From Methanofollis tationis (lineage in GTDB: Archaea; Halobacteriota; Methanomicrobia; Methanomicrobiales; Methanofollaceae), in the NCBI RefSeq assembly GCF_013377755.1, contig NZ_JABXWR010000001.1:62001-126000 (forward strand): DNA of 64,000 nucleotides, in the 5' to 3' direction. Made by a program: the position numbers and the translations under genes. The notes beneath the pieces were generated by a model. It worked only from the letters and a program-made list of their open reading frames with translations, was not told where the DNA came from and searched no databases. Positions 38,163 through 56,422 of the stretch are shown here, piece after piece. Every line of letters begins with the position of its first letter. Positions within the stretch are counted from its first letter, which is position 1.

Positions 38163-41100
38163 TTATGCCTCCCCTGAAATCTCCCGGCACACCTGCTCTG
38201 CCTGCATGAGCACCAGCTGCGTGGCCTCCTCCTGTTTGTCAGGCGGGTATTTATACTGCCTCAGAATCCTTTTGATTGTCCTCCGCATCCGTGCCCTGAC
38301 ATTTTCTTTGCGTGACCAGTCGATGGTGACATTCTCCTGCACTTTGACGACCAGTTCGCTGGCAATCTTCCGCAGGTCCTCGTCGGCCATCACCTCACGG
38401 GCGCTCTGGTTGTTTGCGAGAGCGTCGTAGAAGGCGATCTCGGCCTCTGAGAGGCCCATTTTCTCGCCCCGCTTGACCTCCTCGCGGATCTGGCGTGCGG
38501 TCTCGATCAACTGCTCGATAATGACCGCCGTCTCGACCGAGCGGTTCTCGTAGTTCAGGATTGTCTGGTCGAGCATCTCGGAGAATTTTCTGGACTGGAC
38601 CACGTTTTTCCGCATCCTGGTCTTGATCTCGTCGTTGATCAGTTTCCGCAGGAGTTCAACGGCGAGGTTTTTTTGCGGAAGTCCTCTGACTTCTGCAAGG
38701 AACTCGTCTGAGAGGATGGAGATGTCGGGGTTGCTCAGGCCGGCGGCCTTGAAGATCTCGACCGGGCCGTCGAGAGCGATGGCCCCTGAGATCAACTGGT
38801 TGACGGCATGGTCGAGGACGTCGGCAGGTTTACCTTTCCTGACGGTGTTTTTGAGGATCGAGGCACGGACCGACTGGAAGAAGGTGACGTCGTCCCTGAT
38901 CTCCCCTGCTGCTTCTTCGGTGACGGCCAGGGCATAGGCCGCCGAGAGTTGCATGACGGTGTCCAGGAAGTCTTCCTTGCCGTCGGGTTGTTTGAGGATG
39001 TGGTTCATGCCGCCGGTGATCAGGGCAAGCCGGCCCATCGGGTCGCCGCTCTTCCATTCTGACCATTTGAAGCCGTGCATCAGGTCGCAGCAGATCTGGT
39101 GCTTCTCCAGCATCATGGCGACGGCCTCTTCGAGTTCGTAGACGGTAAGGCCCTTGTGTTTCGTTGTGGTGTATTCGGCGAGGGCCGTCTTCATCCTGGG
39201 TGCGATACCGATGTAGTCGACCACAAGGCCACCTGGTTTGTCCTTGAAGACGCGGTCCACGCGGGCGATGGTCTGCATCAGGCCGTGGCCCTGCATGGGT
39301 TTGTCGACGTACATGGTGGTGAGGCAGGGGGCGTTGAAGCCGGTGTTCCACATGTCACGGACGATGACGATCGTGAAGGGATCGTCGGGGTCTTTGAACC
39401 GTTTTCTCAGGCCCCGGATCTGCTGTTTTGTCCGGATGTGTTTCTGCCAGTCCAGCCTCTCTCCGGGGGTGCCGGACATGATGACCTTGATGGCGCCGGC
39501 GGTGTCGTCGTCGCTGTCCCATTCGGGGTGGAGGCGGACGAGGGCGTTGTACATCTCGACACAGATCCGGCGGCTCATGCAGACGATCATGGCCTTGCCG
39601 GGGAGGACTTCCTGCTGTTGTGCGAAGTGGCGGTCGATGTCTGCGGCGATGGTCTCGATCCGGTGCGGTGTGCCGACGACGGCTTCGAGGGCGGCCCATT
39701 TGGATTTTATTTTGCCTCTGGTGTCTTCGTCCTCTTCTGAGACGATGTCGTCGAGTTCTTCGTCGAGTTTTGGCTTTTCTTCGTCGGGGAGGTCGAGTTT
39801 GACGTGCCGCCCTTCGTAGTAGATGGGGACGGTGACGTGGTCTTTTTGTGCCTGGAGGACGTCGTAGGTGCTGATGTCGTCGCCGAAGACCTGCCGGGTG
39901 TCGCGGTCCTTGAGGGAGATGGGGGTGCCGGTGAAGCCGATGGCGGTGGCGTTGGGGAGGGCCTGCCTGATGTATGCGGCAAAGCCGTATCTGATGTGGC
40001 CGGTCTTTTCGTTGATATGGCCTGTGAAGCCGTACTGGCTTTCGTGGGCTTCGTCGGCGATTAAGATGATGTTGCGCCGGTCGGAGAGGAGGGGGTGGTG
40101 TGCTTCTTCTTTGGTGGGGAAGAATTTCTGGACGGTGGAGAAGACGATGCCGCCGGCCTGCCGGCCGTGGAGGAGGTCCCTGAGGTTGGCCCGGCTTGCG
40201 GCCTGGACGGGTTCCTGCCTGAGGTGGTCCTGGCATTCGGCGAAGGTGTCGAAGAGCTGGTCGTCGAGGTCGTTCTGGTCGGTGAGGACGACGATGGTCG
40301 GGTTTTTCAGGTCAGCGGCGAGGGCGAGTTTGCGGGCGTAGAATACCATGGTAAGACTTTTGCCCGAGCCCTGGGTGTGCCAGATGACGCCGCCTTTCTG
40401 GTCGCCGCCCGTTGATGCGGCGCGGATGGTGCTTTCGATGGCGGCTTTGACGGCGAAGAACTGGTGGTAGCCGGCATTGATCTTGGTGAGGCTGGTGCCG
40501 CTGTTCTGGAAGAGGATGAAGTCCTGGAGGTATTCGGTGAGGCGGTGGGGGTGGAAGAGGCCGTGGATGAGGACGTCGAGTTCCGGGGTGGCCTCGGGGG
40601 CGGTGGTGTCGCCGTCGACCGTGCGCCAGGGCATGAAGTATTCTCTGCCGGCGGTGAGCGATCCGGTGCGGGCCTCGACGCCGTCGGAGATGACGAGGAG
40701 TTCGTTGGTGGCGAAGAGGGAGGGGATCTGTTGTATGTAGGTCTGGAGCTGGTTGTAGGCGGTCCAGATGTCAGTGGCGGGGTCGGCGGGGTTTTTGAGT
40801 TCGATCACGGCGATGGGGAGGCCGTTGACGAAGATGACGATGTCGGGCCGACGGTTACGGTTGTTCTCGGTGACGGTGTACTGGTTGACGGCGAGCCATT
40901 CGTTGTTTTCAGGGGTGGCAGGATCGAAGATCCGGACCGGGGCGCTGCGGATGCGGCCGTCTGGACCGCGGTATTCGACGGTGACGCCTTCGGTGAGGTG
41001 CTGGTGGAAGGTGCGGTTGGTTTCGATGAGGGAGGGGGAGGCGGTGCGGATGAGTTTCCTGAAGGCCTCGTCGAGGGCCTCGCGCGGGAGGTCGGGGTTG

Positions 41101-41279
41101 ATCCTGGCGATGGCGTCCTGCAACCGTCGGGTGAGGAGGGGCTGGTCGTAGTTTTCGCGCTCCGGGGTTGTTCCGTCGGGGGCGATGTCAGGGCCGTGGA
41201 GGATGGTGTAGCCCATCTCTGCAAACCAGGCGAGCGCCGCGGTCTCGACTTCGTCTTCGGTGAAGGTGTGGTGTCCCAT
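38163..41279 (-). CDS. hsdR: Type I restriction enzyme, restriction/translocation subunit
   Basis: 1038 residues from ATG 41279 (MGHHTFTEDEVE), 8 bp after fic. HsdR cuts unmodified DNA after ATP-driven translocation by the HsdR2M2S complex. The N-terminal nuclease domain has RRPDIVIFVNGLPIAVIELK (Asp146, Glu160, Lys162). Helicase motifs are TQGSGKSLTMV (304-308), IADEAHESQYG (DEAH at 409-412) and IGFTGTPI. A long C-terminal helical region (EENVTIDWSRKENVRARMRRTIKRIL-type end) binds the methylase core. It is the last gene of the type I operon and appears intact. Confidence 0.96.
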   Translation of the reverse strand: MGHHTFTEDEVETAALAWFAEMGYTILHGPDIAPDGTTPERENYDQPLLTRRLQDAIARINPDLPREALDEAFRKLIRTASPSLIETNRTFHQHLTEGVTVEYRGPDGRIRSAPVRIFDPATPENNEWLAVNQYTVTENNRNRRPDIVIFVNGLPIAVIELKNPADPATDIWTAYNQLQTYIQQIPSLFATNELLVISDGVEARTGSLTAGREYFMPWRTVDGDTTAPEATPELDVLIHGLFHPHRLTEYLQDFILFQNSGTSLTKINAGYHQFFAVKAAIESTIRAASTGGDQKGGVIWHTQGSGKSLTMVFYARKLALAADLKNPTIVVLTDQNDLDDQLFDTFAECQDHLRQEPVQAASRANLRDLLHGRQAGGIVFSTVQKFFPTKEEAHHPLLSDRRNIILIADEAHESQYGFTGHINEKTGHIRYGFAAYIRQALPNATAIGFTGTPISLKDRDTRQVFGDDISTYDVLQAQKDHVTVPIYYEGRHVKLDLPDEEKPKLDEELDDIVSEEDEDTRGKIKSKWAALEAVVGTPHRIETIAADIDRHFAQQQEVLPGKAMIVCMSRRICVEMYNALVRLHPEWDSDDDTAGAIKVIMSGTPGERLDWQKHIRTKQQIRGLRKRFKDPDDPFTIVIVRDMWNTGFNAPCLTTMYVDKPMQGHGLMQTIARVDRVFKDKPGGLVVDYIGIAPRMKTALAEYTTTKHKGLTVYELEEAVAMMLEKHQICCDLMHGFKWSEWKSGDPMGRLALITGGMNHILKQPDGKEDFLDTVMQLSAAYALAVTEEAAGEIRDDVTFFQSVRASILKNTVRKGKPADVLDHAVNQLISGAIALDGPVEIFKAAGLSNPDISILSDEFLAEVRGLPQKNLAVELLRKLINDEIKTRMRKNVVQSRKFSEMLDQTILNYENRSVETAVIIEQLIETARQIREEVKRGEKMGLSEAEIAFYDALANNQSAREVMADEDLRKIASELVVKVQENVTIDWSRKENVRARMRRTIKRILRQYKYPPDKQEEATQLVLMQAEQVCREISGEA

Positions 41280-41287
41280 TTGTTCGC

Positions 41288-42622
41288 CTATTTCTTTTTC
41301 TCGTCCCAGAGGTCGCATCCTTCGTTGAAGATGAAGATGAACTCCCGGCCGCGTTTTTCTTTTCTGATGTAGCCCTGGTCGGCGAGGCTGAGGAGGTCGG
41401 TCCTGGCCGTCTGGTAGACGACGCCGTGGGTCTCCGAGACCTCTCTGATGGTGAAATACTCGTCGCTGTGCTCCATCATCTGTCGCAGGATGTCTGCCTG
41501 CCTTTGATTGATGTTTTGGATAGTTTTAATTATCGCTTTTGTTGCGTTCTGCTCGCTCTGTTTTTTCTCGATGTAGGCGAGCAGGTCTCTCCGGGCCTCA
41601 TCGATGCACCGGATATGATACTGGATGAAGTAGGTAAGGTCCATCTCGTCGTATTCGGTGTGGAGGTAGGCGAGGGCGTAGTCTTTCTTGGACCGGAGGA
41701 TGATCCGGGAGATGGGCATGTACTCGAAGAGCCAGTAGCCCCGAGAGAGGACGTACCAGTAGAAGATGCTGCGTGCGGTCCTGCCGTTGCCGTCCTCGAA
41801 GGGGTGGATGTAGCCGATGAGGAAGTGGAGGATGATCCCCTTTATGATGGGGTGGATGAATGTGCCGGCATCGTCGTCAGGGGCGTTTGCAAACCGGCAG
41901 AGTTCTTCGATCATCTCCCAGATTCTGGTGTGCTCCGGGGGTGTGTGGTGGACGACGCCGGTGACCGGGTCGGCGACGACAATCTCATCGTTGTCTCTGA
42001 ACCGCCCGACGGCCCCCTCGTCCAGGGTGTTCTCGGTGACAAAGAGGTGGATGTCGATGATGAACTCCGGGGTGAGGGGAGTGTCCTTCTGGTCCCGGAT
42101 GTAGCGCATCGCCCGGTAGTTGTTGACGATCATCTGCTCGGACTTATCCCGTGGCTCTCTCCCCTTCCGGAGCATCTCTTTGGCGACCCTGTGGGTGGTC
42201 GCCGCCCCTTCGAGGACGCTGGAAGCGATGGCCTCCTCCATGAGCGAGTTGATGATGTAGGACTGTTCGAGCCTGATGGTCTTGTTATGGATCTGGATCG
42301 TGCCGGAGAGGTACTGGTCGAAGATGTGGAGGCTGCGCGAGATTTCGGGTGTGGTCGAGTATTTCAGGTCGAGGGGCGGGTAGGGGACGGGTTCGTAGCG
42401 CATGGTACGGAGTATCTTCATCGTCGCCCAGGTGGCCATCCGCTTCTCGGCGTCGGGGACGCGGTACCTGAGGTCGTCCCAGGAGAGGTAGCGGGCGTTG
42501 TATTCGGTCACCGCCTGTCTGAACTCCGGGTCGCGCTGGACTGTATTGATCGTGCGGAGGGCGGTTTCGTCCCACGTTGTGGGTGGCTTTTCCGGGAGTT
42601 TTTTCATGGGTCGACCTGCCAA
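41288..42622 (-). CDS. Fic-domain protein with N-terminal inhibitory motif and C-terminal winged helix
   Basis: 444 residues from TTG 42622, or 439 from ATG 42607. The Fic catalytic motif is HPFEDGNGR (273-281), which transfers AMP from ATP to a hydroxyl on a target protein. SSVLEGA (134-140) matches the inhibitory (S/T)xxxEG helix, so this is a self-inhibited Fic protein. The C-terminal 80 residues (QRQADILRQMMEHSDEYFTIREV, RTDLLSLADQGYI) form a winged-helix DNA-binding domain. It lies between hsdS and hsdR, 8 bp before hsdR, directly after a duplicated palindrome it may bind. The target, perhaps an Hsd subunit, is unknown. Confidence 0.93.
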   Translation of the reverse strand: MAGRPMKKLPEKPPTTWDETALRTINTVQRDPEFRQAVTEYNARYLSWDDLRYRVPDAEKRMATWATMKILRTMRYEPVPYPPLDLKYSTTPEISRSLHIFDQYLSGTIQIHNKTIRLEQSYIINSLMEEAIASSVLEGAATTHRVAKEMLRKGREPRDKSEQMIVNNYRAMRYIRDQKDTPLTPEFIIDIHLFVTENTLDEGAVGRFRDNDEIVVADPVTGVVHHTPPEHTRIWEMIEELCRFANAPDDDAGTFIHPIIKGIILHFLIGYIHPFEDGNGRTARSIFYWYVLSRGYWLFEYMPISRIILRSKKDYALAYLHTEYDEMDLTYFIQYHIRCIDEARRDLLAYIEKKQSEQNATKAIIKTIQNINQRQADILRQMMEHSDEYFTIREVSETHGVVYQTARTDLLSLADQGYIRKEKRGREFIFIFNEGCDLWDEKKK

Positions 42623-42623
42623 A

Positions 42624-42712
42624 TACTAATTTGATACAGTTTAGTATTTCATTAGTATTTCGATCCCGATCGATAAAATACTAATTTTACACAAATTAGT
42701 AGTTCGTTAGTA
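42624..42712 (-). promoter_or_regulatory. Duplicated palindromic operator before fic-hsdR
   Basis: Two units 55 bp apart. In each, TACTAATTT is followed after 5 bp by its inverse: 42624-42632/42638-42646 (AGTTTAGTA, two mismatches) and 42679-42687/42693-42701 (AAATTAGTA, perfect). Each unit also has an extra half-site TTAGTA at the same offset (42652-42657 and 42707-42712). The near unit touches the start codon, so a bound protein would block transcription or translation of fic-hsdR. The repressor may be the Fic winged helix (inference). Confidence 0.75.
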
Positions 42713-42768: not shown

Positions 42769-44151
42769 TCACCATCGACGTGCCTGTGTCTGTTCTATGG
42801 TGGCTCTCTCTCCTTCGTCAACCGGCACCCTGACCTCCCCGGAGATGAGTCTGGGGAGGAGGGTGTCGCGGAGGGCGGCGAGGGTGCGGGATTCTTCGTC
42901 CTTCTGCTTGATAAGCACCATAATAGATTTTACAATCCTCTCAAAACTTTTTGCAATGTCAGAGGACGGAACAACAACCAGATAGTTCTCAAAACAAGAA
43001 GCGGAGACCCTCTGCCGTCCACTTGTTCCAGTCATATTCAGGATTGCATATGTTCGGAGTTCTTCCGATCTCGCAAGGCAGTAGCCATATTCCTTTGGCA
43101 GAGGAGGCTTTGGTCGGAATACAATGTATTCGGTAGATCCCCACCCTACCTGATCGTCCTTCAGGAAATCGACATATGCAGTTTTTCCGTTTTCAAGGCA
43201 TGGGGTGATTCGAGCGAGAAGGGTATCACCATTCATGAACTTGACACCAGATCCGAATGGTCGGTCCACCCATTCGATAGCGCGATGCCCTTGCATGGGC
43301 ATGTTCTTCATATCAAGGTAAGGAGCGACCTCCCCTTTCGACAGAGAAACACGTGGGTTAACTTCGATGACCTCAGTAAGAGGTGCAACTCTCCACCCAA
43401 CCGGCACCTCCCGTCCATCCACCTCCTCAAACCCATCAGGAAACAGCGCCGCCGTCTCCTCGTCCATGCCAGCGGGCGCCCGCCCCTCGGCCTTCGCCCG
43501 CACCGGGTCGAAGTCCACGAACCATGATGTGAAGAGCGCCTGCGCCATCGCTTCGAGGGTGGCGTTTATTTTGCGGTTCAGTTCGATTTTGTCGTCGAGG
43601 GAGGAGAGGATGCGGGCGATGGCGTGTTGTTCGGGGAGAGGGGGATAGTATATCGGAATGTCGCTGAGAATTTTGGTATTCAATGAAGGCATTGTGGCCC
43701 CAACTGCAATACTTCGGATGTATTCTTTAAACGAATCCAAACCGAAAAAATACGACAAATAAACGGGATCAATAACTTCTCGATTCACCCTGACGCGAAG
43801 GCATCTGCCCGAAAAAAGCCATCCATCTTCTGTTTTTCGGACCAGTGCCCTTCGATCCACAGATCCTACACGGCTAAAAACAATGTCTCCGCACTTCAGA
43901 GAATATTTTTTCAATCTAATTCTATCTTCATCAGAAACAAAAGGCGTATTTTCATGGAGTATTCGATTCTCTCCTAAATGTTCAACTGTTATTATCGGCG
44001 TTCCTGATTCAACATAATCTTCATTATGCAACTGACTCCCAAATGGGCCAGTTTGGACTCCAACTTTTGGTATGCAAATCTGTTCTAGTTTTGACTCAGA
44101 GAAATCACACGAAATATGGCCATAGAGAGTTAATTGGGTTTTTACTGTCAT
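42769..44151 (-). CDS. hsdS: Type I restriction enzyme specificity subunit
   Basis: 460 residues from ATG 44151 (GGTGGT 4 bp upstream). HsdS binds DNA through two target-recognition domains and dictates the sequence methylated and restricted. The first TRD is about 10-165 (VGVQTGPFGSQLHNEDY opening), and it ends in the conserved helix PPLPEQHAIARILSSLDDKIEL (about 180-205). The second TRD is about 245-400 (VNPRVSLSKGE, then GSGVKFMNGDTLLARITPCLENGK), followed by a second helix with LAALRDTLLPRLISGEV. Two complete TRDs imply a functional bipartite target. hsdM lies 10.5 kb upstream, across inserted material. Confidence 0.94.
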   Translation of the reverse strand: MTVKTQLTLYGHISCDFSESKLEQICIPKVGVQTGPFGSQLHNEDYVESGTPIITVEHLGENRILHENTPFVSDEDRIRLKKYSLKCGDIVFSRVGSVDRRALVRKTEDGWLFSGRCLRVRVNREVIDPVYLSYFFGLDSFKEYIRSIAVGATMPSLNTKILSDIPIYYPPLPEQHAIARILSSLDDKIELNRKINATLEAMAQALFTSWFVDFDPVRAKAEGRAPAGMDEETAALFPDGFEEVDGREVPVGWRVAPLTEVIEVNPRVSLSKGEVAPYLDMKNMPMQGHRAIEWVDRPFGSGVKFMNGDTLLARITPCLENGKTAYVDFLKDDQVGWGSTEYIVFRPKPPLPKEYGYCLARSEELRTYAILNMTGTSGRQRVSASCFENYLVVVPSSDIAKSFERIVKSIMVLIKQKDEESRTLAALRDTLLPRLISGEVRVPVDEGERATIEQTQARRW

Positions 44152-44152
44152 A

Positions 44153-44440
44153 TTACCACCAAATCTCTTTAAGTATTGCAGCAGCAACTGTTCCTGCCAT
44201 GTCACCGATGAACATCTCTGGAAGAGCATCAACAAAAATTTCAATCGCGTTTGAAATAATCTCTACACTCTCCTCTATTGATTCAGGTTTAACAAATAAT
44301 AATAAAATAAGGGGAATAAGGAGAATAAATGACCCTATATCTGAGTAGATTTTGTAAATATTATATCCACAGAGAATAGTTGTGCCAAATCCTAGAATAG
44401 CAAAGAGAACGCAAACTAAAAAAAATGATAAATAATCCAT
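44153..44440 (-). CDS. Small membrane protein upstream of hsdS
   Basis: 95 residues, unrecognised. Two N-terminal hydrophobic segments (about 3-25, FFLVCVLFAILGFGTTILCG, and 34-51, SFILLIPLILLLFV) precede an acidic amphipathic region (ESIEESVEIISNAIEIFVDAL). It is AT-richer than its neighbours. The stop is 1 bp from the hsdS start, so the two are co-translated. It could be a membrane-linked defence effector or a leader acquired with the insertion. Confidence 0.55.
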   Translation of the reverse strand: MDYLSFFLVCVLFAILGFGTTILCGYNIYKIYSDIGSFILLIPLILLLFVKPESIEESVEIISNAIEIFVDALPEMFIGDMAGTVAAAILKEIWW

Positions 44441-44604: not shown

Positions 44605-45543
44605 TGAACCCAAACTCCTCAAGCATTAGGGAATATATCGAGTTCCAGTTTCTCCGCGATCTTCCGCACCCCCTTCGGCACCTCGGTGATCCGTCTCTCC
44701 TCCCCCGCTCCCACCGCGTACACCTTTGAGAGTTTCAGCAGCAGCCCCTGCGGTGACAGGTGCGCTGTCATCCCCGCCCTCTTGATCCGGTTCAGGATCC
44801 GGCAGTAGAGATAGAGACAGAGAAACCCGACAAAGACATGGCCGAACACCGCCGTTGCGTCCCGGAGGTAGAGCTTGTCTGCCTGGATCAAACTCTTGAA
44901 CGCAGCAAAATGGTCCTCGACCAGGTTTCTCGACTTATACATCTGGTAGATCTCCTGGGGCTCCGCCTTCACCGAGGAGAGGATCAGGATCCGGCCCGCA
45001 CGCTTCAGCCTCACGTTCAGCGCTTCCCGATCGATCTCTCCCTCCTCCAGCAGGCGGTAGAGGGTCTTCTCCTCTTCGACCTTCAGGTCGGCATCCTCGT
45101 AGAGATAGAGTGTCAGTCCGTCGATCTCCCTTTTACCGGCATGGATCAGCCGTTTGTGGTAGAAGAAGTGGTCGGTGAGATGGATCCTGATCTCGTACCT
45201 GGTGCTATTGCGGCGTTGCGGGAGGACGAACGGGATCTTCGCCTTGATCAGGGCTGCTTCATTCTTCTCTGAGACGAATCCACGATCGAGGACAAGGATC
45301 CCTCCTGGTGCTGCGATCTCGGCGAGGGATCCAACGAGAGTCGAGACATCCCTGACCGAACCCGGCAGGGCGCGGATCATCACCGGAAGGCCGGTGTCCA
45401 TGGCGCTGAAGAGTGCAATGTTCACCTGGGGCAGCCAGACCCCTTCAGCGTTGTAGCCGAACTCTGCCAGGTTTACGGTGTCGGAGGAAGAGAAGATGAA
45501 CGAGAGGTCGTAGATGAGCCGGTTCGATTGTGAGGAGAGGTAC
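44605..45543 (-). mobile_element. 5'-truncated IS4/IS1634-type element
   Basis: This is a truncated copy of the element at 51151-52589, nearly identical until the match ends at 45543 after GAGGAGAGGTAC. About the first 165 residues of the transposase and the left end of the element are missing. The retained end begins CCCAAACTCCTCA, as in the complete copy. The frame at 44619-45584 starts in foreign sequence (MNEMRGRKELEKYW) and is presumably inactive. Confidence 0.85.
44619..45543 (-). pseudogene. Truncated DDE transposase (IS4/IS1634 type)
   Basis: It retains the central and C-terminal DDE core: NLAEFGYNAEGVWLPQVN, GGILVLDRGFVSEKN (second Asp) and the Glu in SRNLVEDHFAAFKSLI. The N-terminal DNA-binding third and probably the first catalytic Asp region are incomplete. 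Differences from the complete copy at 51162-52589 are few (for example KAKIPF against EAKIPF), so the truncation is recent. Confidence 0.85.
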
Positions 45544-45605
45544 CAGTACTTCTCTAATTCCTTCCTCCCTCTCATTTCATTCAACGGCGTTTCTCGCTCC
45601 CTTTC

Positions 45606-46763
45606 CTAAACAGGATTCCTTAACACAGGAATGGCTCTGGCACCCCTCATCGATGTGCGGATCGCCTCCCAGATTATGCACATGAAGGAGCTGAACCGGA
45701 AGCCGCGCACCTCAATGGTTTGTGGTCCCTGTTTCACGGGGGAAAAGTGCTTCCAGAGTAGATCGATCCAGATATTCTTGAGGAGGAACGATATTATGGC
45801 GTAGAGATACCGGATGACCGGGTTTTTTGTGCTCGTACGGGGTTTCACCTGGTTGCGCATCCGATAGGACGATTCAATCGAGAACCTGGACCGATAGGTC
45901 TGATGGACCCGATGGGGATTCCACCGGAGGTTTCCCACGACGTAACCCAGATTCTCAACGCCGCGCTTACCCCGTTTTCCTTTTGCATACTTCACGGCAA
46001 TCGCAATCTTCAGGACCAGCACCGGTTTTCCGTGCATCCGATATTCAGCATACCGGGAGTGGGTTCCCTGGAGGACTTGTTTCATCCTTTTCCCGTGTTT
46101 CCTGACAGGAACGATGAACGGCACCTGGACGTCCATCAGAAACCCGAGCACCTTCCGGGTGTAGAACTCCCGATCCAGGCAGAGAACTTCGATGCGAAGA
46201 CCGAGTTCAGTGATCCGATCGAGACATTGCGCGATGTATCCGACCTTCGAGGTATCCCGGCGCACCGGGAACACGGCCAGCGTCATCTGCCGGTTCCTGG
46301 TGGTCACATACAGAGTGATGTAGGAATAAAACTCATTTGTTGACTTTTTACGCTTACTTCGCACGATATAGGCTTCGTTCTCCTCATCGGTTGACCCGTA
46401 GTACGGATCGTTGGTAAAGTCAATCGCAAACTGATAGGCGTACCCCGGTTTGAGGACGTGGTGCATATGGGTGGTGAGGATCGAGGTGTTATTCTGCTCC
46501 AAATCGGCCATATCGAGTTTTTTGAGGTGGTAGCGAACGGACGTTTCGCACGGTACCCGATCCAGGATGTGGGTGATTGAGTGAACTGACTGATTCATTA
46601 CAGCCATGCCGACCAAAGAAGAAATCAAGTCCGTTTGAGTGAGTTTTCCCTGAATGGGAATGGTTAGATGCTGATCCAGTGCCGAAACAACAGGGGCGCA
46701 ACAGTCTTTAGGTTTCAGAATGTTGCTCTTTCTGCAGGTCACCCTCGATTTAGGTAAAGGCAT
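45606..46763 (-). CDS. ISH3-type DDE transposase
   Basis: 385 residues, complete. It resembles ISH3-family transposases of haloarchaea and methanogens: SVHSITHILDRVPCETSVRYHL at the N-terminus, FAIDFTNDPYYG (first Asp), ITELGLRIEVLCLDREFYTRKV (second Asp) and YRSRFSIESSYRMRNQVKPRTST (the Glu). The terminal repeats were not found with certainty; the element probably spans about 45.59-46.80 kb. It sits between a truncated IS and the HNH gene, whose 5' end it may have removed. Confidence 0.85.
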   Translation of the reverse strand: MPLPKSRVTCRKSNILKPKDCCAPVVSALDQHLTIPIQGKLTQTDLISSLVGMAVMNQSVHSITHILDRVPCETSVRYHLKKLDMADLEQNNTSILTTHMHHVLKPGYAYQFAIDFTNDPYYGSTDEENEAYIVRSKRKKSTNEFYSYITLYVTTRNRQMTLAVFPVRRDTSKVGYIAQCLDRITELGLRIEVLCLDREFYTRKVLGFLMDVQVPFIVPVRKHGKRMKQVLQGTHSRYAEYRMHGKPVLVLKIAIAVKYAKGKRGKRGVENLGYVVGNLRWNPHRVHQTYRSRFSIESSYRMRNQVKPRTSTKNPVIRYLYAIISFLLKNIWIDLLWKHFSPVKQGPQTIEVRGFRFSSFMCIIWEAIRTSMRGARAIPVLRNPV

Positions 46764-46858
46764 GAGGGGAAGCCTGCAATCTATATAGATCTTTCGATTT
46801 TGGGCGGGCTTCGGGCGGTAGAGGGGGATTTGGGGTCTCTAAAATTAGCGAAGTACTG

Positions 46859-47296
46859 ATGCCGACGACCGAACGGGCGATCGCCGATGCACGGGGGATC
46901 TACCGCTCGGCCCTTGAGGGCGGCGGGCTCAGGTGCGTCTGGTCGGGGCGGACGATCCCTTCGGCATCGGAGATGCACATCGACCACCTCCTCCCCTTCT
47001 CGATCTGGAGGAACAACGACCTCTGGAACCTCCTGCCCACCCTCGGATCGGTCAATACAAAAAAGAGCGACCGCATCCCCGACCCCCATTTCCTGAAGAG
47101 GCGAAAGGAGGAGATCGTCGGGTGCTGGGATCTGCTCCATGACCGCCTCCCCGGCCGGTTCGAGGAGGAGATCAGGATCTCCCTCATCGGCCCCCGTGCA
47201 CCCTGGAGCGACTGGCAGGACCTGGCGATCGAGCACCTCGCCGACAAATGCACATACTTAATTGAGATCCGGGGCTACGAGGCATGGGCGCTATGA
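46859..47296 (+). CDS. HNH endonuclease-domain protein, possibly 5'-truncated
   Basis: 145 residues. The HNH core is LRCVWSGRTI, then HIDHLLPFSIWRNNDLWNLLP and VNTKKSDRIP: His-Asp-His and the downstream Asn/His metal site, with one cysteine in place of the usual zinc knuckle. Related proteins with this pattern are often 250-400 residues with an extra N-terminal region. Here no ribosome site precedes the ATG, and the frame stays open upstream into the ISH3 flank, so the original start may be lost. The stop overlaps the HIT gene by 13 bp. Confidence 0.7.
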   Translation: MPTTERAIADARGIYRSALEGGGLRCVWSGRTIPSASEMHIDHLLPFSIWRNNDLWNLLPTLGSVNTKKSDRIPDPHFLKRRKEEIVGCWDLLHDRLPGRFEEEIRISLIGPRAPWSDWQDLAIEHLADKCTYLIEIRGYEAWAL

Positions 47297-47661
47297 CCTG
47301 TCCGTTCTGCACCCCCGAACCCTCAGAGGTCGTGCTCGCAAACGACCTCTGCTATGCCAGATACGACCGCTACCCGGTGAACCCCGGCCACCTGCTGATC
47401 ATCCCGTTCAGGCATGTTGCAGACTTCTTCGACGCCACCGCCGAGGAGCAGGAGGCCCTGCTCGCCCTGGTCAGGGAGGCGAAGGCCCACCTCGACCGCG
47501 AGTTCAGCCCCGACGGCTACAACCTCGGCGTGAATGTCGGGGAGGCCGCCGGCCAGACGGTGATGCACCTGCACATCCACCTGATCCCCCGGTACCGGGG
47601 GGATATCGAGAACCCGCGGGGCGGGGTGCGGGGGGTTATTCCGGAGAAGCGGGTGTATTGA
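47284..47661 (+). CDS. HIT-family nucleotide hydrolase
   Basis: 125 residues from ATG 47284 (or 47293, MTCPFC). A CPFC pair opens the protein. The histidine-triad motif is HLHIHLIPR, with the earlier NPGHLLIIPFRHV strand and NVGEAAGQTV typical of HIT hydrolases, which act on AMP- or ADP-linked substrates such as Ap4A or adenylylated residues. It overlaps the HNH gene on the same strand. A role in removing AMP from an adenylylated end or protein, relevant to the nearby Fic, is only a speculation. Confidence 0.88.
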   Translation: MGAMTCPFCTPEPSEVVLANDLCYARYDRYPVNPGHLLIIPFRHVADFFDATAEEQEALLALVREAKAHLDREFSPDGYNLGVNVGEAAGQTVMHLHIHLIPRYRGDIENPRGGVRGVIPEKRVY

Positions 47662-47706
47662 GGGGAGAGATCCGATCGAATAGGGGGAAAGATTGCGCCC
47701 ATCCTA

Positions 47707-47763
47707 TGGTCTGGCTGGAGGCATCTTTGCCCTAACAGGGCGACGTCATAACCGGCCAGACCA
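47707..47763. other. Nested inverted repeat, possible structured RNA or terminator
   Basis: Outer arms TGGTCTGGC (47707-47715) and GCCAGACCA (47755-47763) pair perfectly. Inside is a short perfect hairpin GCCCT-AAC-AGGGC (47729-47741). It follows the HIT gene by 45 bp. It could be a transcript end, a small RNA, or the scar or attachment site of an insertion. No T-run follows, so a simple terminator is less likely. Confidence 0.45.
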
Positions 47764-47884
47764 GACCAGGTGTATCAAGATCCAATAACACTCAGTGATT
47801 ATTGCATCCACGCCCTCACACCCTACGGCGAGCAGAACGATAGAGTATTTTAAAATCCTCAAGAATAAAATCGGAAGATTAAAT

Positions 47885-48196
47885 ATGCCCGATATATTTG
47901 ATCAGCGTATGCGAAACGAGATCAGAGTATTCGCGGCGCTGATAATCTTTTGCGCCCTGGTCGCGGGCATCGTCGCATGGTCCGGGGCGGCGGAGGCCGG
48001 GGGCGCTACCGTATGCGTTGACGGATATTGCACGCCGGCGGAGGCGGCAGCGGGGTGTATTGCGGCGGCGTCAATATCTATTCTCACCGCGTGGTCTTCG
48101 GCCCGATCCCGGCGGGGGAGGCGGTTAGAGATGTTTCTGTTGTTTCTCTCTCCCTCTCGCCGTCCGAGGTGGCTGGCGGGGATCGCCTGGAGTTGA
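47885..48196 (+). CDS. Small putative membrane protein
   Basis: 103 residues from ATG 47885, preceded by AT-rich sequence without a clear ribosome site. One hydrophobic segment (VFAALIIFCALVAGIVAW) and a second weaker one (AAAGCIAAASISILTAW) flank a short Cys-containing loop. The C-terminus is Arg-rich and may be out-of-frame sequence; the gene may be broken. Unrecognised. Confidence 0.35.
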   Translation: MPDIFDQRMRNEIRVFAALIIFCALVAGIVAWSGAAEAGGATVCVDGYCTPAEAAAGCIAAASISILTAWSSARSRRGRRLEMFLLFLSPSRRPRWLAGIAWS

Positions 48197-48318
48197 GGAT
48201 TGATGAGGTCGCTGTCGATGCGGCCGCTCAGCCGTCCGGGTGAGATCCCTCAATCGCAACCACTGCCCCTGGGGGAGGAGCCGCCGAGAGGCGGCAGGCG
48301 GGGAATGTCGGGGGGATG

Positions 48319-49401
48319 TTAGATCCCTTCATCATAAAAAGCAGTCATAGCAGTTGTAAGCAAAAACAATTCCTCTTCACTGAAATCATTTTTAATCCAA
48401 GTTGGTAAACTTTTTTGAGGGAACTGCAATTTTGAAAGAGCCATTGAAAGTTCCCTGATCTTCTTATTAACTCCTCCTTCAACAGATTTTCTATCAATTC
48501 CTATTGAAAGTGCCTTTGATAGCCCAAGCAATATTTCAAGAAATACATGTTGTGCCGAGCTTGGATCAGTAGGACTCCCCATAAAGGCCCAATATTCTAT
48601 CCCAATTTTCCGATATACCCGAACAGTTCTAGTTTCTCTATCTATCAAGACACCAGGACATCGTTCCCGGTCTTCCTCAACGAAACCATTGTCCAATAAT
48701 TTTGCGAGGATCTGATTCTCTTTATTATTAGTGGTCTTGTCAGTCCCATAAGTAAGGCCAACAACCACATCAATCGATTTTACAGATCTATTGTTTCTTT
48801 TTGACTCATTGATCCAAGTTTTGTAATTATTTCTTATAGCATCCGTCATTGCTTGGACTTGACTGTCATTGATAGTATTAGGCCCACTTTTTATGGTAAC
48901 AAAATATCTATGGTCACCTACTACAACAGACTTGTCGATCTCCCGCCAAACCGATCCCACTCGTTTCTGAGCTTTTTCCTCGCGAGTAAACCCTTCAAGC
49001 CCTTTAAACTCTGCAATTTTCTCCAAGGGTTCTTCCCAATGTGTTGTTGAGTTAATTGGATATTGCCCAACAAATGCTGATTCAATAGATTTACCAAATG
49101 AGGTCTCAAGGGCCATGTAAAACTTGCTATTAAATATAAAGTCCGCAAATCTGGCCGGGTCATCAAGATCCAAGACGCTCGCGGATGTCAATAAGACATA
49201 AGGATTTGTACGATAGTCTGCTAAATTTTCTCTCTTATCAAAGGCTTTTGGCAAATTGTCCCGAATATATACAGATACAGATTCAGCAATCCTATCGACT
49301 CTTTCTTTATCAACATGAGAAAACAAATCCGAAATTTTTGACGTCTCAAAAACACTTTTTTTAGATTTTAGGATCCTGTAAAAGGAATTTTTTGCTACCA
49401 T
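48319..49401 (-). CDS. Type II restriction endonuclease (PmeII-like)
   Basis: 360 residues. The central VWREIDKSVVVGDHRYFVTIKSGPNTINDSQ supplies an Asp and an I-K pair spaced as in PD-(D/E)XK nucleases, and the surrounding pattern recalls the PmeII-type restriction enzymes (recalled, not searched). It lies 11 bp downstream of a cytosine-5 DNA methyltransferase on the same strand, the classic arrangement of a type II system. It is AT-rich compared with the chromosome, consistent with acquisition by transfer. Confidence 0.8.
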   Translation of the reverse strand: MVAKNSFYRILKSKKSVFETSKISDLFSHVDKERVDRIAESVSVYIRDNLPKAFDKRENLADYRTNPYVLLTSASVLDLDDPARFADFIFNSKFYMALETSFGKSIESAFVGQYPINSTTHWEEPLEKIAEFKGLEGFTREEKAQKRVGSVWREIDKSVVVGDHRYFVTIKSGPNTINDSQVQAMTDAIRNNYKTWINESKRNNRSVKSIDVVVGLTYGTDKTTNNKENQILAKLLDNGFVEEDRERCPGVLIDRETRTVRVYRKIGIEYWAFMGSPTDPSSAQHVFLEILLGLSKALSIGIDRKSVEGGVNKKIRELSMALSKLQFPQKSLPTWIKNDFSEEELFLLTTAMTAFYDEGI

Positions 49402-49412
49402 AACAAACAGAC

Positions 49413-50837
49413 CTAAGACATACTGCGGTTCTTACGTTTGGTTTTCGGTTGAGAATATTTAGCCCCTCCGTTTTGCTTTCCATCCTCCCATACGATCGTT
49501 TCTCCTTTTTTATACCACTGACGGGTTCTGACGTGAGATTGAATATATGTGATTTTGAAATTTTCACTTCGAGCAGGATATGGTTGCCAGTCCCTTACTT
49601 TCAGTTTTTCTAGGTACGAAACTATTACTTCGCCAGCAACCTTGCCAAGACGGACAGGGACAGCGTTTCCGACTTGAGCATATTGTTGGGCCACCGTTCC
49701 AACCAGTTCCCAATCATCAGGGAACTCTTGAATCCTCGCATATTCTCGGAGTGTTAGTGTACGGACATCTTGAGGATGGCAAAGAGCCATTGAAGCATGG
49801 TTGGGCATCGTTAACAATGTAGGACAAGGGAGGTCGTAACTTAACCTTCTCCACCACCCTGATCTGCCACCTTTCGCATACCAAGCTTTCCCCATAGATT
49901 CTTTCTGATCCTCAATAGGGAGGCTTCGCCAGTTTGAACCCTCTGGTACTTTGCTGAGATAATATTTTTTTCGAGGGCTGAAATCTAGTATAACTGGATC
50001 TTCCTCCTTCAAATATCCTATTGCATCTCTGAGAGTTTTCCAAGGTTTAAGTTCTTGATCCTCTGGGCCGGGGAGTTTACTCTGACCATAATTTGCCTGG
50101 CGAGAGCCATGGGTCGGATCCGGGAAATTTACTAGAGTATTATATCTATTCCCAATAAACAGAACCCTCTCACGGATCTGAGGAGCCCCATAATTAACAG
50201 CATTTACCTCAAAACAGTCGAAGCAATAGGAATGACCATTAATCTTTTTCAAATCCTCGGCAAAAAGACGGACAACTGATCCTGGTTGTTCATCGTCTTC
50301 AAGTGGTGCTCCTCCATTTTCTGGCCTCTCTGCGATGGGCCTGTGCCTCAGGGCAGCGGACATCAGCCCCCTTACGTTCTCCATAAGGAAGAAACGGGGT
50401 TGTATCTCCTTGATGAAACGTAAATACTCCCATAAGAGGGTTCCACGAGGATCTTGAACGGTACCCCTCTTACCAGCAGTACTGAAGGACTGACATGGTG
50501 GACCCCCCGCGATAAGATCAACTTCTCCGGGCCTGAGGCCGACCGCGTCCAATATCTCTTGTGGACTGATATTCCGAATATCTCCCTCAAATATTTTCAG
50601 ATCTTTGGATAGGCGACCCTTTTCCTGGTTCAGACGTATTGTGTCACAAAAAACCTTCTCTTTTTCTACGCAGGCGATTATTTCAAATCGTCCTGTACAT
50701 TCTAAGCCAAGGTCAAGGCCCATCGCCCCGGAAAATAATGATATTACATTAAATTTAGTCTGCGGGAACTTGGTAACAAATGTAGTATTATCAGGCATTA
50801 TATCACCGACAGGGCAAAACGCACATAGTGAATTCAT
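49413..50837 (-). CDS. DNA (cytosine-5-)-methyltransferase
   Basis: 474 residues from ATG 50837, or 461 from ATG 50798 (MPDNTTF). It transfers a methyl group from S-adenosylmethionine to C5 of cytosine. Motif I is NVISLFSGAMGLDLGLE, motif IV is GGPPCQSFSTAGKRG with the catalytic Cys, motif VI is FFLMENVRG, motif VIII is QIRERV and motif X is QVGNAVPVRLG. It is partner to the restriction enzyme at 48319. Low GC against the rest of the window. The target sequence is not readable from motif content. Confidence 0.95.
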   Translation of the reverse strand: MNSLCAFCPVGDIMPDNTTFVTKFPQTKFNVISLFSGAMGLDLGLECTGRFEIIACVEKEKVFCDTIRLNQEKGRLSKDLKIFEGDIRNISPQEILDAVGLRPGEVDLIAGGPPCQSFSTAGKRGTVQDPRGTLLWEYLRFIKEIQPRFFLMENVRGLMSAALRHRPIAERPENGGAPLEDDEQPGSVVRLFAEDLKKINGHSYCFDCFEVNAVNYGAPQIRERVLFIGNRYNTLVNFPDPTHGSRQANYGQSKLPGPEDQELKPWKTLRDAIGYLKEEDPVILDFSPRKKYYLSKVPEGSNWRSLPIEDQKESMGKAWYAKGGRSGWWRRLSYDLPCPTLLTMPNHASMALCHPQDVRTLTLREYARIQEFPDDWELVGTVAQQYAQVGNAVPVRLGKVAGEVIVSYLEKLKVRDWQPYPARSENFKITYIQSHVRTRQWYKKGETIVWEDGKQNGGAKYSQPKTKRKNRSMS

Positions 50838-50907
50838 TTCTAATTTTTAAAGACATTATTGATGTTCATTATGTGATTTCAACATGAAGTACGTGTCGCA
50901 GTTATTC

Positions 50908-51151
50908 GAGGACTTCGATCAACCCCCTCATTTTTCAAAAGATCGGTCTTCACTCCCCGATTCCTCGTTGAATTCCCGGGATTTTTACGTCACGCCTCTC
51001 AATTCCCTCTATTATCCCTCCTTTTTCTCTCACGAAAGATAGCTACCGCTCAAGCAGTCTGTCGTTCAATCGTCAGCAGTTGTTTCAGGTTGAATGAAAG
51101 ACACGAGAAGAGATATTTCACATGCGCTCGTGCGCAGGTTGTCACCCGGAC
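50908..51151 (-). mobile_element. IS5-family remnant (right end only)
   Basis: 244 bp matching the right end of copies A and B, with several substitutions (for example CACTCCCC for CACCCCCC). It begins with the terminal repeat GAGGACTTCGATCAACC and stops inside the transposase C-terminus at 51151, where the IS4/IS1634-type element starts. It is older than copies A and B and was broken by that element. Confidence 0.85.
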
Positions 51152-52605
51152 CCCAAACTCCTCACGCATTAGGGAATATATCGAGTTCCAGTTTCTCCGC
51201 GATCTTCCGCACCCCCTTCGGCACCTCGGTGATCCGTCTCTCCTCCCCCGCTCCCACCGCGTACACCTTTGAGAGTTTCAGCAGCAGCCCCTGCGGCGAC
51301 AGATGCGCCGTTATCCCCGTCCTCTTGATCCGGTTCAGGATCCGGCAGTAGAGATAGAAACAGAGAAACCCGACAAAGACATGGCCGAACACCGCCGTTG
51401 CGTCCCGGAGGTAGAGCTTGTCTGCCTGGATCAAACTCTTGAACGCAGCAAAATGGTCCTCGACCAGGTTTCTCGACTTATACATCTGGTAGATCTCCTG
51501 GGGCTCCGCCTTCACCGAGGAGAGGATCAGGATCCGGCCCGCACGCTTCAGCCTCACGTTCAGCGCTTCCCGATCGATCTCTCCCTCCTCCAGCAGGCGG
51601 TAGAGGGTCTTCTCCTCTTCGACCTTCAGGTCGGCATCCTCGTAGAGATAGAGTGTCAGTCCGTCGATCTCCCTTTTACCGGCATGGATCAGCCGTTTGT
51701 GGTAGAAGAAGTGGTCGGTGAGATGGATCCTGATCTCGTACCTGGTGCTATTGCGGCGTTGCGGGAGGACGAACGGGATCTTCGCCTCGATCAGGGCTGT
51801 TTCGTTCTTCTCCGAGACGAATCCACGATCGAGGACAAGAATGCCTCCTGGTGCTGCGATCTCGGCGAGGGATCCAACGAGAGTCGAGACATCCCTGACC
51901 GAACCCGGCAGGGCGCGGATCATCACCGGAAGGCCGGTATCCATGGCGCTGAAGAGTGCAATGTTCACCTGGGGCAGCCAGACCCCTTCAGCGTTGTAGC
52001 CGAACTCTGCCAGGTTTACGGTGTCGGAGGAAGAGAAGATGAACGAGAGGTCGTAGATGAGCCGGTTCGATTGTGAGGAGAGGTACTGGAACACCTGCTG
52101 CTGGGCATGACGATCGCCGCCGATCGCGGTGAGCGTACGCGAGAGAGCGCGGGGATCGCAGGACGGCGCGATCTCAAGGCCGTTATTGAGTTTCTCCCAG
52201 GCATCATTGACCCGGGAGAGCGGCGTGTACCCGGAGATCCGGGTGAAGGTGAGGGCGACGATCTCCTGCCAGTGGCCCGGGAAGGCGTCTTTCAGGATGG
52301 GGAGAAGGTCACTGGACTCTTCTTCCAGCAGGGCAGCGTTGCCATATTCGTGGATGGTGCAGGGCTGGATGGTTGGCGTTCGCGCACCTTTGGGTACCAG
52401 GCCATGATCTTTCGTGAGCCGGCCGAGGTACGTGCTCACCTTCCGGGGGGATTTGCTCGCTTTGTCGTAGACGCTTGTCGAACGGTAGACGTAGGGTTTG
52501 TCCTGGATGTACTTGATCTCAAGGCACTTCTCGCCCTTCCGGCGTTGGTCTTCCAGCCACCCGCGAGCCCACTCGTCCATATGATACAATATTAGGGAAT
52601 ATAAT
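51152..52605 (-). mobile_element. Complete IS4/IS1634-type insertion sequence
   Basis: The left boundary is CCCAAACTCCTCA, where it joins the IS5 remnant. The right end is not defined with certainty, but lies near or shortly beyond the transposase start at 52589. ATTAGGGAATATA occurs at both ends in the same orientation (about 51169-51181 and 52593-52605), one copy being inside the transposase's last codons. Whether this is chance or part of the mechanism is unclear. Confidence 0.7.
51162..52589 (-). CDS. DDE transposase (IS4/IS1634 type)
   Basis: 475 residues, complete. The N-terminal 160 residues (YIQDKPYVYRSTSVYDKASK, RKVSTYLGRLTKDHG) match the DNA-binding region of IS1634-like transposases. 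The DDE core has NLAEFGYNAEG, GGILVLDRGFVSEKN and SRNLVEDHFAAFKSLIQ, and the C-terminus has KLSKVYAVGAGEERRITEVPKGV. It is the intact version of the frame truncated at 44619-45543 and is a plausible source of it. Confidence 0.92.
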   Translation of the reverse strand: MYHMDEWARGWLEDQRRKGEKCLEIKYIQDKPYVYRSTSVYDKASKSPRKVSTYLGRLTKDHGLVPKGARTPTIQPCTIHEYGNAALLEEESSDLLPILKDAFPGHWQEIVALTFTRISGYTPLSRVNDAWEKLNNGLEIAPSCDPRALSRTLTAIGGDRHAQQQVFQYLSSQSNRLIYDLSFIFSSSDTVNLAEFGYNAEGVWLPQVNIALFSAMDTGLPVMIRALPGSVRDVSTLVGSLAEIAAPGGILVLDRGFVSEKNETALIEAKIPFVLPQRRNSTRYEIRIHLTDHFFYHKRLIHAGKREIDGLTLYLYEDADLKVEEEKTLYRLLEEGEIDREALNVRLKRAGRILILSSVKAEPQEIYQMYKSRNLVEDHFAAFKSLIQADKLYLRDATAVFGHVFVGFLCFYLYCRILNRIKRTGITAHLSPQGLLLKLSKVYAVGAGEERRITEVPKGVRKIAEKLELDIFPNA

Positions 52606-53660: not shown

Positions 53661-54689
53661 TCACTCCTCCCCCCGCTCCAGTTCTTCCTCCAGTTCATCC
53701 ACCGTCGGCAGCCTCCCGGCCATCTCCTCGGGCAGCGCCGAGGTCAGCGCATACCCGGCCACCCCGATCGGCCTCGCCATATCCCGCAGGGCGTACTCGG
53801 CGATCACGCGGTTCTTCGCCTTGCAGAGCACGATCCCGATGCTCGGGTTGTCCGAGGAGTGGGTCAGGAGGTCATCCACCGCCGAGAGATAGAAGTTCAT
53901 CTTCCCTGCATACTCAGGGATGAACTCACCCACCTTCAGGTCGATCACCACATAGGACCTGAGTTTTAAGTGGTAGAAGAGGAGGTCCAGGTAATAGTCC
54001 TGGCCCCCGACCTCCAGGTGATACTGGCTCCCCACAAACGCGAACCCCACGCCGAGTTCCAGGAGAAACTCGCGGATGTGGTCGAGAAGCCCTCGCTCCA
54101 GTTCGCTCTCCCGCACCTTCTCCCCCATCTGGAGAAAATCAAAGACATAGGGGTCCTTCAGGGTCTGGAGGGCGAGGTCAGACTGCTCCGCCGGGAGAGT
54201 CGCCGAAAAATTCGTCACCGCCCGCCCCTCACGCTCGATAAGCCCGCTCTCGATCTGGTGGACGAGCACGTTCCTCGACCACCCGTTCGCGATAGTCTTG
54301 TGGATATACCACTCGCGCCGGAGCGGGTCCTTCACCTTGTCGAGCAGCGTGACCGTATGATACCACGTAATTTGTGCAAGCACCTCCTGCACAAATTCCT
54401 CGTCCGGGTACGCCCGTGCGACCGCACTCATGTACTTGAGATTTCTCGGGGAAAACCCCTTTACATCGGGAAACTCCCTCCTCAGGTCGGCAGAGAGGCG
54501 GTCGATCACCTTTGCGCCCCACCCCTCCTGCTCCTGCCTCACCACGATCTCCCGTCCGATCTGCCAGTAGAGCAGGATCAGTTCGCGGTTCGCCAGGAGC
54601 ACCGCCCGGACCTGCGCCTCGCGGATCCGCACCTTCAGGTCTGAGAGAAGGGCCGGGTAATCGGCAGGGAGGAGATCATTGGAGGACAT
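53661..54689 (-). CDS. DUF1016 PD-(D/E)XK nuclease-domain protein (YhcG type)
   Basis: 342 residues. The N-terminal domain (about 1-160) has [30 protein letters not shown] and the [10 protein letters not shown] motif of DUF1016_N. The C-terminal nuclease domain (about 185-320) has [21 protein letters not shown] (Asp and the Asp-x-Lys pair of a PD-(D/E)XK site) and [10 protein letters not shown]. Such genes often sit between hsdM and hsdS, and an accessory role in DNA restriction or repair is suspected. Its start overlaps hsdM by 14 bp. A broken relative lies at 56940-57200. Confidence 0.93.
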
Positions 54690-56295
54690 ACCCGATCCCC
54701 CGCAGGTTCTCCCTGATCTCCCCTTCCAGCCTCGCCGACTCGACGAACTGCTCCTGCAGTTCAGCCGTCAACCGCTCCATCCGCTCCTCAAACGGTTCCC
54801 CGTCGTCCTCGACCTCCCCGGCCCCGACATACCGCCCAGGCGTGAGCACATACCCCTGCTCGGCCACCTCCTCGACGGTCACGCTCCGGCAGAAACCGGG
54901 CACGTCCTCGTACTCACCCGCACCCTCGTCCCCCCGCCAGGCATGATAGGTCCCGGCGATCCGCTCGATATCCTCGTCGGTCAGGTCCCGGTGGGTGCGG
55001 TCGGTCATCACGCCCATCTTTCTCGCGTCGATGAAGAGGACCTGGCGGCGGCGGTCGCGGAAGGAATGGTTCTTCTTGTCCCGCGAGAGGAACCAGAGGC
55101 AGGCCGGAATCTGCGTCGTGTAGAAGAGTTGTCCGGGCAGGGCGACCATGCAGTCCACCAGATCGTCCTCGACGATGTTCTTGCGGATCTCCCCCTCGCC
55201 CGAGGTATTCGAGGACATCGACCCGTTCGCCAGCACGATCCCCGCCTGTCCCGTCGGCGTGAGGTGGTGGATCATGTGCTGCATCCAGGCAAAGTTGGCG
55301 TTGTTCTTCGGCGGGATGCCGTAGCGCCAGCGGGCGTCGCCCTGGAGATGCTCCGCCCCCCAGTCCTTCAGGTTGAAGGGGGGATTTGCCAGAATATAGT
55401 CAGCCCTGACGGTCTTGTGCAGGTCGTTGAGGAAACTATCGGCATTTTCTTTCCCGAGGTCTCCGGTGATCCCCCGGATCGCCAGGTTCATCTTCGCCAG
55501 GCGCCAGGTCGTGGCATTCGACTCCTGCCCGTACACGCTGATGTCGTCCCGGCGCCCGCCATGCGCCTCCACGAATTCCTCGCTCTGGACGAACATCCCC
55601 CCCGACCCGCAGCACGGGTCGTATATCCGGCCCTGATACGGGGCGAGCATCGCCACCAGCGTCCTGACGATGCACCGGGGCGTGTAGAACTGCCCGCCTT
55701 TCTTCCCCTCGGCACTCGCAAACTGCGAAAGGAAGTACTCATACACCCGCCCGAGCACATCCTTCGACCTGCTCTCCCGGTCCCCGACCGCAATGCTTCC
55801 GACAAGGTCTACCAGTTCACCGAGGCGCTGCTTGTCCAGACTCGCCCGGCCAAAATCCTTCGAGAGCACACCCTTCAGCGAGGGGTTGCACCCCTCAATC
55901 GCCACCATCGCATCGTCGATCAGCACCCCGATCTTCGGCGACCTGGCATTATCCTGCAGATGCGACCACCGCGCCTCCTTCGGGACCCAGAAGACATTCT
56001 CGGCACGGTACTCATCCGGGTCCTCCACCACCTCATACCGCTGTTCAGGTTCGGCCACATACCACTCGCTCGCCGGATCGCTGACCTCCTGCCAGAGATG
56101 TGCACTCTGCTCCTCAAATGCATCAGAGATATATTTCAGGAAGATCAGACCCAGGACGACATGCTTGTACTCCGCCGCATCCATATTGGAGCGGAGTTTG
56201 TCGGCTGCATCCCAGAGTTTGGACTCAAAGCCGAGGGTGACACCAGTTGGTCGCTGTGGTTCGTGCGTTTTGGTGGGAAGGGCGGTCTGTTTCAT
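54676..56295 (-). CDS. hsdM: Type I restriction-modification methyltransferase subunit
   Basis: 539 residues from ATG 56295 (MKQTALPTK), preferred over 56541 because the family similarity begins with [34 protein letters not shown]. It is an adenine-N6 methylase: SAM site [11 protein letters not shown] (226-235) and catalytic NPPF (304-307), after [12 protein letters not shown]. The C-terminus is a helical region that binds HsdS. It is first gene of the type I operon but separated from hsdS by about 10.5 kb of inserted DNA. Divergent from the EVE gene. Confidence 0.96.
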
Positions 56296-56422
56296 GGTGA
56301 TGTCTCTGTTTGTAAGTAATACTCCGGACAGAGAGAGAAATATTTTGTCAAACGGGTTCATTCCTTTCTTTTGTGAGGCAGGTCCGATACATTTTTGCCA
56401 GAGAGATGGAAAATGCCATGCA

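Follow-up and report, generated by a model that had tools for sequence, protein, structure and literature searches.

Two palindromic units ahead of fic

The 64,000-nucleotide stretch of DNA analysed here (the window) carries two tandem palindromic units immediately ahead of a fic gene, which is itself followed by the restriction gene hsdR. The question raised by this locus is which protein reads the two units and what is controlled from them. The genome holding the repeat contains two mcrA genes and is that of a methanogen. The palindromes, at 42624-42646 and 42679-42701, are offset by exactly 55 bp; the first has two mismatches against TACTAATTT-N5-AAATTAGTA and the second is a perfect copy, and each unit contains an additional TTAGTA at an equal offset (42652-42657 and 42707-42712). 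These features had been described in the first-pass annotation and were all confirmed in the window sequence. Read on the minus strand, which encodes fic, the unit is TACTAA-N5-TACTAA-N11-TTAGTA, composed of one inverted pair and one direct accessory half-site one helical turn off. The proximal predicted operator palindrome, TACTAA-N11-TTAGTA on the minus strand, occupies positions -39 to -17 relative to the fic ATG, and its accessory half-site TACTAA lies 11 bp from the first half-site of the palindrome. Both palindromes, as well as the accessory half-site of the distal unit, are conserved in orthologues. The repeat is real and far beyond chance: none of 100 shuffled windows gave a match to the palindrome with up to three mismatches allowed, and exact TACTAA-N5-TACTAA occurs only twice in the 2.25-Mb genome, both times in the window units. 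No element of an archaeal promoter could be placed confidently.

The hsd genes around the units, all on the minus strand, belong to a type I restriction-modification system. The specificity gene hsdS (42769-44244; Pfam Methylase_S, PADLOC Specificity_I) lies upstream of the palindromes, and hsdR, encoding the restriction subunit (38163-41279; Pfam HSDR_N and T1RH-like_C, NCBIfam hsdR), follows fic. The open frame of hsdR extends to 41318, and its likely start is the ATG at 41279, 8 bp after the fic stop codon; hsdR is probably co-transcribed with fic from a common promoter. The modification gene hsdM (54676-56541; N6_Mtase, 379 bits in its own genome) is about 10 kb away from hsdS, separated from it by insertions, and the next gene after it encodes a DUF1016/YhcG nuclease (53661-54689). 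Neither hsdS nor hsdM, both upstream, has units of its own; no TACTAA unit was found near hsdM, the motif being unique to fic in this genome. The type I operon looks split into hsdM-DUF1016 and hsdS-fic-hsdR, with about 9 kb in between (44619-52589). Within this interval lie two IS transposase genes that are nearly identical, along with a type II system comprising a C5 methylase (49413-50837) and an EcoO109I-like nuclease (48319-49401). A small ORF at 46859-47296, which has a weak match to the HNH region of Cas9 (E 4.6e-5, far under the cut-off), probably encodes a stand-alone HNH protein.

The Fic protein and its winged helix

The fic gene (41288-42607, minus strand) encodes a protein of 439 residues. 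The ATG at 42607 was taken as the start, since it coincides with the beginning of homologues, which read MKKLPEKPP from there, and the TTG at 42622, given as the start in the first-pass annotation, is unlikely. The Fic domain was identified by Pfam PF02661 with 67.6 bits (cut-off 24). The active-site motif HPFEDGNGRTAR, of the HPFx[DE]GNGRxxR type, is near-invariant over 15 relatives; in the N-terminal inhibitory helix motif SSVLEG, of the [S/T]xxxE[G/N] type, the residues S129/S130, E133 and G134 are invariant. As judged from these motifs, the window Fic is predicted to be an intact class II AMPylase. It matches the PADLOC SoFic profile with an E-value of 6.9e-51 but does not reach the NCBIfam SoFic equivalog cut-off (72.5 versus 550 bits), and we describe it by sequence as resembling SoFic, not as SoFic proper.

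The AF2 model of the window Fic has a pLDDT of 88.6, and a Foldseek search with this model gave SoFic (3zec, 3zcn and 3eqx) and CbFic2 (8cil) as the best matches. The C-terminal part of the model consists of three helices (368-379, 387-394 and 398-410) and two strands (414-419 and 422-427), which, together with these structural matches, bears out the earlier statement that Fic ends in a winged helix. The match of the C terminus to the Pfam winged-helix family DUF6293_C is weak and below the cut-off. The putative recognition helix, residues 398-410 (41378-41416, minus strand), starts with Y398-Q399-T-A-R-T-D-L and was found to covary with the half-site, as described below.

Conservation of the units at fic in Methanomicrobia

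Homologues of Fic are present in 91 of the 232 genomes of the class. Every intact locus that was examined and whose Fic is 57-88% identical to that of the window has at least one TACTAA-N11-TTAGTA, with no more than one mismatch, just 5' of fic; usually there are two units, and restriction genes are normally absent. Over 61 loci, the exact palindrome occurs 77 times inside the region from -260 to +60 of the fic start, versus 7 times in the remaining flank of about 1.0 Mb. The reversed pattern served as the control and gave no match in 12 genomes of the own genus, none in family f4 and some in AT-rich genomes; isolated exact matches in AT-rich genomes were therefore left uncounted. In most orthologues, 34 to 44 bp separate the start of the proximal palindrome from the ATG. 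Searching for the motif upstream of fic-hsdR in related genomes had been suggested as a check in the first-pass annotation; the palindrome is conserved at fic in dozens of genomes.

Base-by-base comparison of the 77 units revealed conservation only in the half-sites, in an A-tract beside TTAGTA and in the accessory half-site, the rest being near random. The accessory half-site, with at most one mismatch, is found at -10 or -11 in 74 of the 77 orthologous units. The exact spacing of 55 bp is common to only some orthologues (7 cases), and the unit-to-unit distance is otherwise 57, 59, 61, 65, 66, 68, 69, 72 or 78 bp. The proposal that a 55-bp period would place the dimers on one face of the helix therefore does not hold in general and was rejected, as the spacing in orthologues ranges from 55 to 78 bp. 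Two genomes from a single methanogen genus (G036 and G070) have tandem arrays of 4 to 7 TACTAA-N11 units, with a 90-bp period, directly downstream of fic (L138, 3576-4137; L139, 4379-4671). The phage collection yielded no informative homologue beyond one unverified metagenome clone.

Restriction genes at fic loci

The locus had been suggested to offer a way of timing restriction after modification, with a Fic switch delaying restriction until the host genome is modified. Such a switch would agree with the arrangement in the window, where a single predicted operator precedes the neighbouring genes fic and hsdR and no units accompany hsdM and hsdS upstream, and the pairing of fic with hsdR recurs in three families (the window, L056, L072 and L083, with remnants at L143 and L149). 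However, these are only a few of about 45 loci. The neighbouring genes vary between fic loci, hsdR being the only recurring neighbour family of note, and most orthologous fic genes have no hsdR. In two genomes (G001 and G194; loci L143 and L149), the unit is retained before hsdR although fic is gone. In addition, a self-repressor is at zero on entry into a naive cell. Because negative autoregulation alone starts without repressor, fic and hsdR would be made at once, which is the opposite of a delay, unless another factor acts. We consider a timing switch quite improbable, since the operator appears to belong to fic. An element specific to restriction-modification control was likewise rejected as a general reading, as hsdR is mostly absent at the loci. 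At the window locus itself, restriction is probably under the control of Fic, with hsdR probably co-repressed with fic, which suggests that some restriction genes have been brought under Fic control.

A DUF1828/DUF1829 gene lies ahead of the unit or of fic-hsdR at L072, L133, L137 and L149, in two families, and at L137 it is preceded by a DUF6978 gene. This arrangement is a recurrent hsd-associated cassette.

Correspondence between recognition helix and half-site

Fic proteins at 40-50% identity have other palindromes of the same architecture at the same position, namely TATCAA-N11-TTGATA with an extra TGATA, TGTAAA-N11-TTTACA, often in two units, and TACCAA-N11-TTGGTA. The half-site letters appear to follow the recognition helix of the C-terminal winged helix of Fic. 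The helix Y[QE]TAR(TDL) goes with the half-site TACTAA at 57 of 57 loci, a count that omits three further conforming Y[QE]TAR loci whose helix was mis-parsed by the script. The helix (VA)Y[GA]TAR goes with TATCAA or TATCAG, and [SA][LMI][PQ]TAR with TGTAAA, in both cases at all loci, where two loci with an extra TACTAA unit further upstream were scored by the proximal site. The helices ARESAR and VYDTAR go with TACCAA. The rule held in 23 of the 23 archaeal loci read after it was noticed (L156-L174, and L026 and L138-L140 on re-reading). The sole odd helix in the TATCAA clade, NATAR at L034, is accompanied by the absence of the TATCAA site.

The same correspondence was found in bacteria. All seven bacterial Y[QE]TAR Fics with readable upstream DNA, at about 40% identity, have a TACTAA palindrome with at most one mismatch beside fic; they come from Archangiaceae, an unplaced proteobacterium, Marinobacter, Rhodocyclales, Dechloromonas, Planctomycetota and Frankiaceae, and the chance level for such palindromes is 0 to 4 of 400 shuffles. 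At L186, the helix SIPTAR goes with TGTAAA, and bacterial Fics with differing helices have other palindromes (TCCTAA, TGCTAA, AGCTAA, TGTATA and TGTCAA). Homologues on Vibrio and Aeromonas plasmids (35-37% identity) have no clear palindrome; the rule therefore has limits, and some HTH-bearing Fics fall outside it. A different perfect palindrome, AACTCAATTTTCGTCAAAATTGAGTT, lies beside the start of a Fic with the helix SYNTAR that is encoded on a 109-kb Klebsiella plasmid (L256, 1459-1484).

With the winged helix excluded from the tree, the operator types need 10 changes, versus 41 with shuffled labels. The classes of helix and operator are largely clades, and shared descent may lie behind part of the agreement. 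Close neighbours on the tree can differ in both: L100, with ARESAR and TACCAA, stands beside L097, with YQTAR and TACTAA, and the distal unit of L097 is a TACCAA/TTAGTA hybrid. A tree-based test of independent pairs gave 3 to 0 and 2 to 0, too few contrasts for significance.

These observations bear on whether the palindromes might be operators for a different regulator, encoded by the host or by the island, that governs fic and hsdR. It is common for defence genes to be controlled by a separate protein, and the case for direct binding by Fic comes from sequence. However, no other gene is common to the loci, and the half-site shifts in step with the helix of Fic itself in archaea and in several bacterial phyla. 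A separate regulator is therefore very improbable.

Units without an intact fic gene

Many genomes without an intact fic still hold a unit, and outside fic or deleted fic loci the TACTAA palindrome is nearly absent. At L141 and L144, what remains of fic after the unit is its last 15 codons. L142 retains two units and then the first 11 codons, and as far as the end of these codons its sequence is 91% identical to that of the intact locus L057. Remnants of fic are also found at L129, L137, L145 and L150. Several solo units are thus, from their sequence context, interpreted as scars of fic deletion. At all of these loci fic seems to have been lost through internal deletions or insertions that spared the operator and one coding end, and such repeated loss suggests that the gene is costly. 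One TACTAA unit lies about 130 bp before an MNT-like nucleotidyltransferase gene in a genome where no fic was detected (L122, 3045-3519) and is possibly a borrowed operator.

About a dozen solo units are not explained as fic scars, several of them with a common left flank in one genus. The units at L130, L131, L132, L134, L135 and L072, about one per genome in this genus, have the left flank GCTGCCGCGAACTACTAA in common, which recurs beside the distal unit in the fic promoter at L070. The presence of solo units in genomes without fic, some sharing this flank, would be expected if the unit were a small dispersed repeat of the REP or MITE kind that lies beside fic by chance. However, the solo units number about one per genome and several are demonstrable deletion scars, and a dispersed repeat would not switch its half-site along with the helix of Fic. 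A dispersed repeat was rejected on these grounds and has a very slight probability, with about a dozen solo units left over. Least probable of all is an RNA hairpin in the fic leader acting in translation control or attenuation, which was also rejected: the proximal palindrome, 17-39 nt before the ATG, could fold in this way, but the inner positions of the 77 units are no more complementary than shuffled columns and show no covariation, the letters themselves are conserved while the centre varies and the accessory direct half-site stays unpaired, and the distal unit may sit 95 nt or more upstream.

Proposed autoregulation of fic

We consider it highly likely that the Fic protein encoded just downstream uses the window palindromes as its operators, in negative autoregulation of its gene. 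Since the site is conserved at fic and its half-site tracks the recognition helix, it is very probable that Fic recognises this sequence specifically and thereby represses the gene that encodes it. The autoregulated Fic put forward in the first-pass annotation is supported by the same two observations and by the near-confinement of the palindrome to fic or deleted fic loci. A Fic dimer would engage the inverted half-sites of TACTAA-N11-TTAGTA through its pair of C-terminal winged helices, and a further Fic subunit may take the direct half-site one helical turn away, with the direct half-site and the second unit used cooperatively. With two units lying between the start codon and the gene upstream, binding would block transcription of fic, and hsdR, probably on the same promoter, would be repressed along with it. 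In this model we infer the binding, the dimer stoichiometry, the co-transcription of hsdR, and repression instead of activation, the last from the position of the site and the precedent of CccR.

A further possibility is that dimeric Fic bound to its own promoter is held inactive or de-AMPylating, so that the operator array would act as a built-in antitoxin. Release from the DNA during infection would then free the enzyme and de-repress fic and hsdR. Such a reading would fit two observations, the recurrent deletions within fic that spare the operator and the switch in activity that DNA induces in CbFic2 (PMC10628234), but we regard it as improbable.

A cognate predicted DNA site can now be proposed for dozens of Fic relatives, with a simple rule from helix to half-site that spans methanogens to proteobacteria and planctomycetes. 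Specific binding, self-repression and the coupling of DNA binding to AMPylation thereby become directly testable in many laboratory systems.

Comparison with known systems

The controller (C) proteins of restriction-modification systems are small HTH proteins that act as activator/repressor switches on tandem palindromes (C-boxes). They are self-regulating DNA binders encoded just upstream of the restriction gene. In contrast, the window Fic is a 439-residue enzyme, not a small stand-alone HTH controller tied to restriction-modification, and its operator mostly occurs without any restriction gene.

SoFic-type Fic proteins have been reported from about 31% of near-complete archaeal genomes (PMC12988326). 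The C-terminal domain of SoFic has been studied as a regulator of toxicity, and the portion of that report considered here describes no operator (PMC12249575). SoFic (SO_4266 of Shewanella; EcSofic), a Fic of the defence type, has the same domain order and the same active-site and inhibitory motifs as the window Fic and is its best PADLOC and structural match, although the two are only about 20% identical.

For CbFic2 of Coxiella, we know of no specific DNA site. It resembles the window Fic in combining a Fic domain with a winged helix, in binding DNA and in its DNA-induced dimerisation (PMC10628234). CbFic2 was assayed on random DNA only, which it binds, and a host-directed role was proposed (PMC10628234); sequence specificity can therefore not be assumed for every relative.

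The closest precedent is CccR (YPK_0951) of Yersinia pseudotuberculosis, a FIC protein with a C-terminal HTH; it acts as an autorepressor by binding an inverted repeat in the promoter of its own gene (PMC9755527). This was demonstrated by EMSA, footprint, lacZ fusion and palindrome mutation, so that an autoregulated Fic, part of what the first-pass annotation called a new way to time restriction, had already been shown experimentally (PMC9755527). CccR and the window Fic are alike as class II Fics with a C-terminal HTH, a dimer (predicted for the window Fic) and an inverted repeat in the own promoter. However, the CccR site is a single inverted pair with a 26-bp spacer, AGATAATCAT-N26-ATGATAATCT, whereas the predicted site of the window Fic has 6-bp half-sites, an 11-bp spacer and an accessory direct half-site, usually in two units. 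CccR is also a T6SS effector, and nothing similar is suggested for the window Fic. Our literature searches for Fic operators returned CccR only. One Fic-HTH autorepressor was thus already known; the novelty lies in a predicted operator of its own that accompanies Fic across the family, in archaea as well as in bacteria, in the arrangement of three half-sites with an 11-bp spacer, and in the apparent covariation between recognition helix and half-site.
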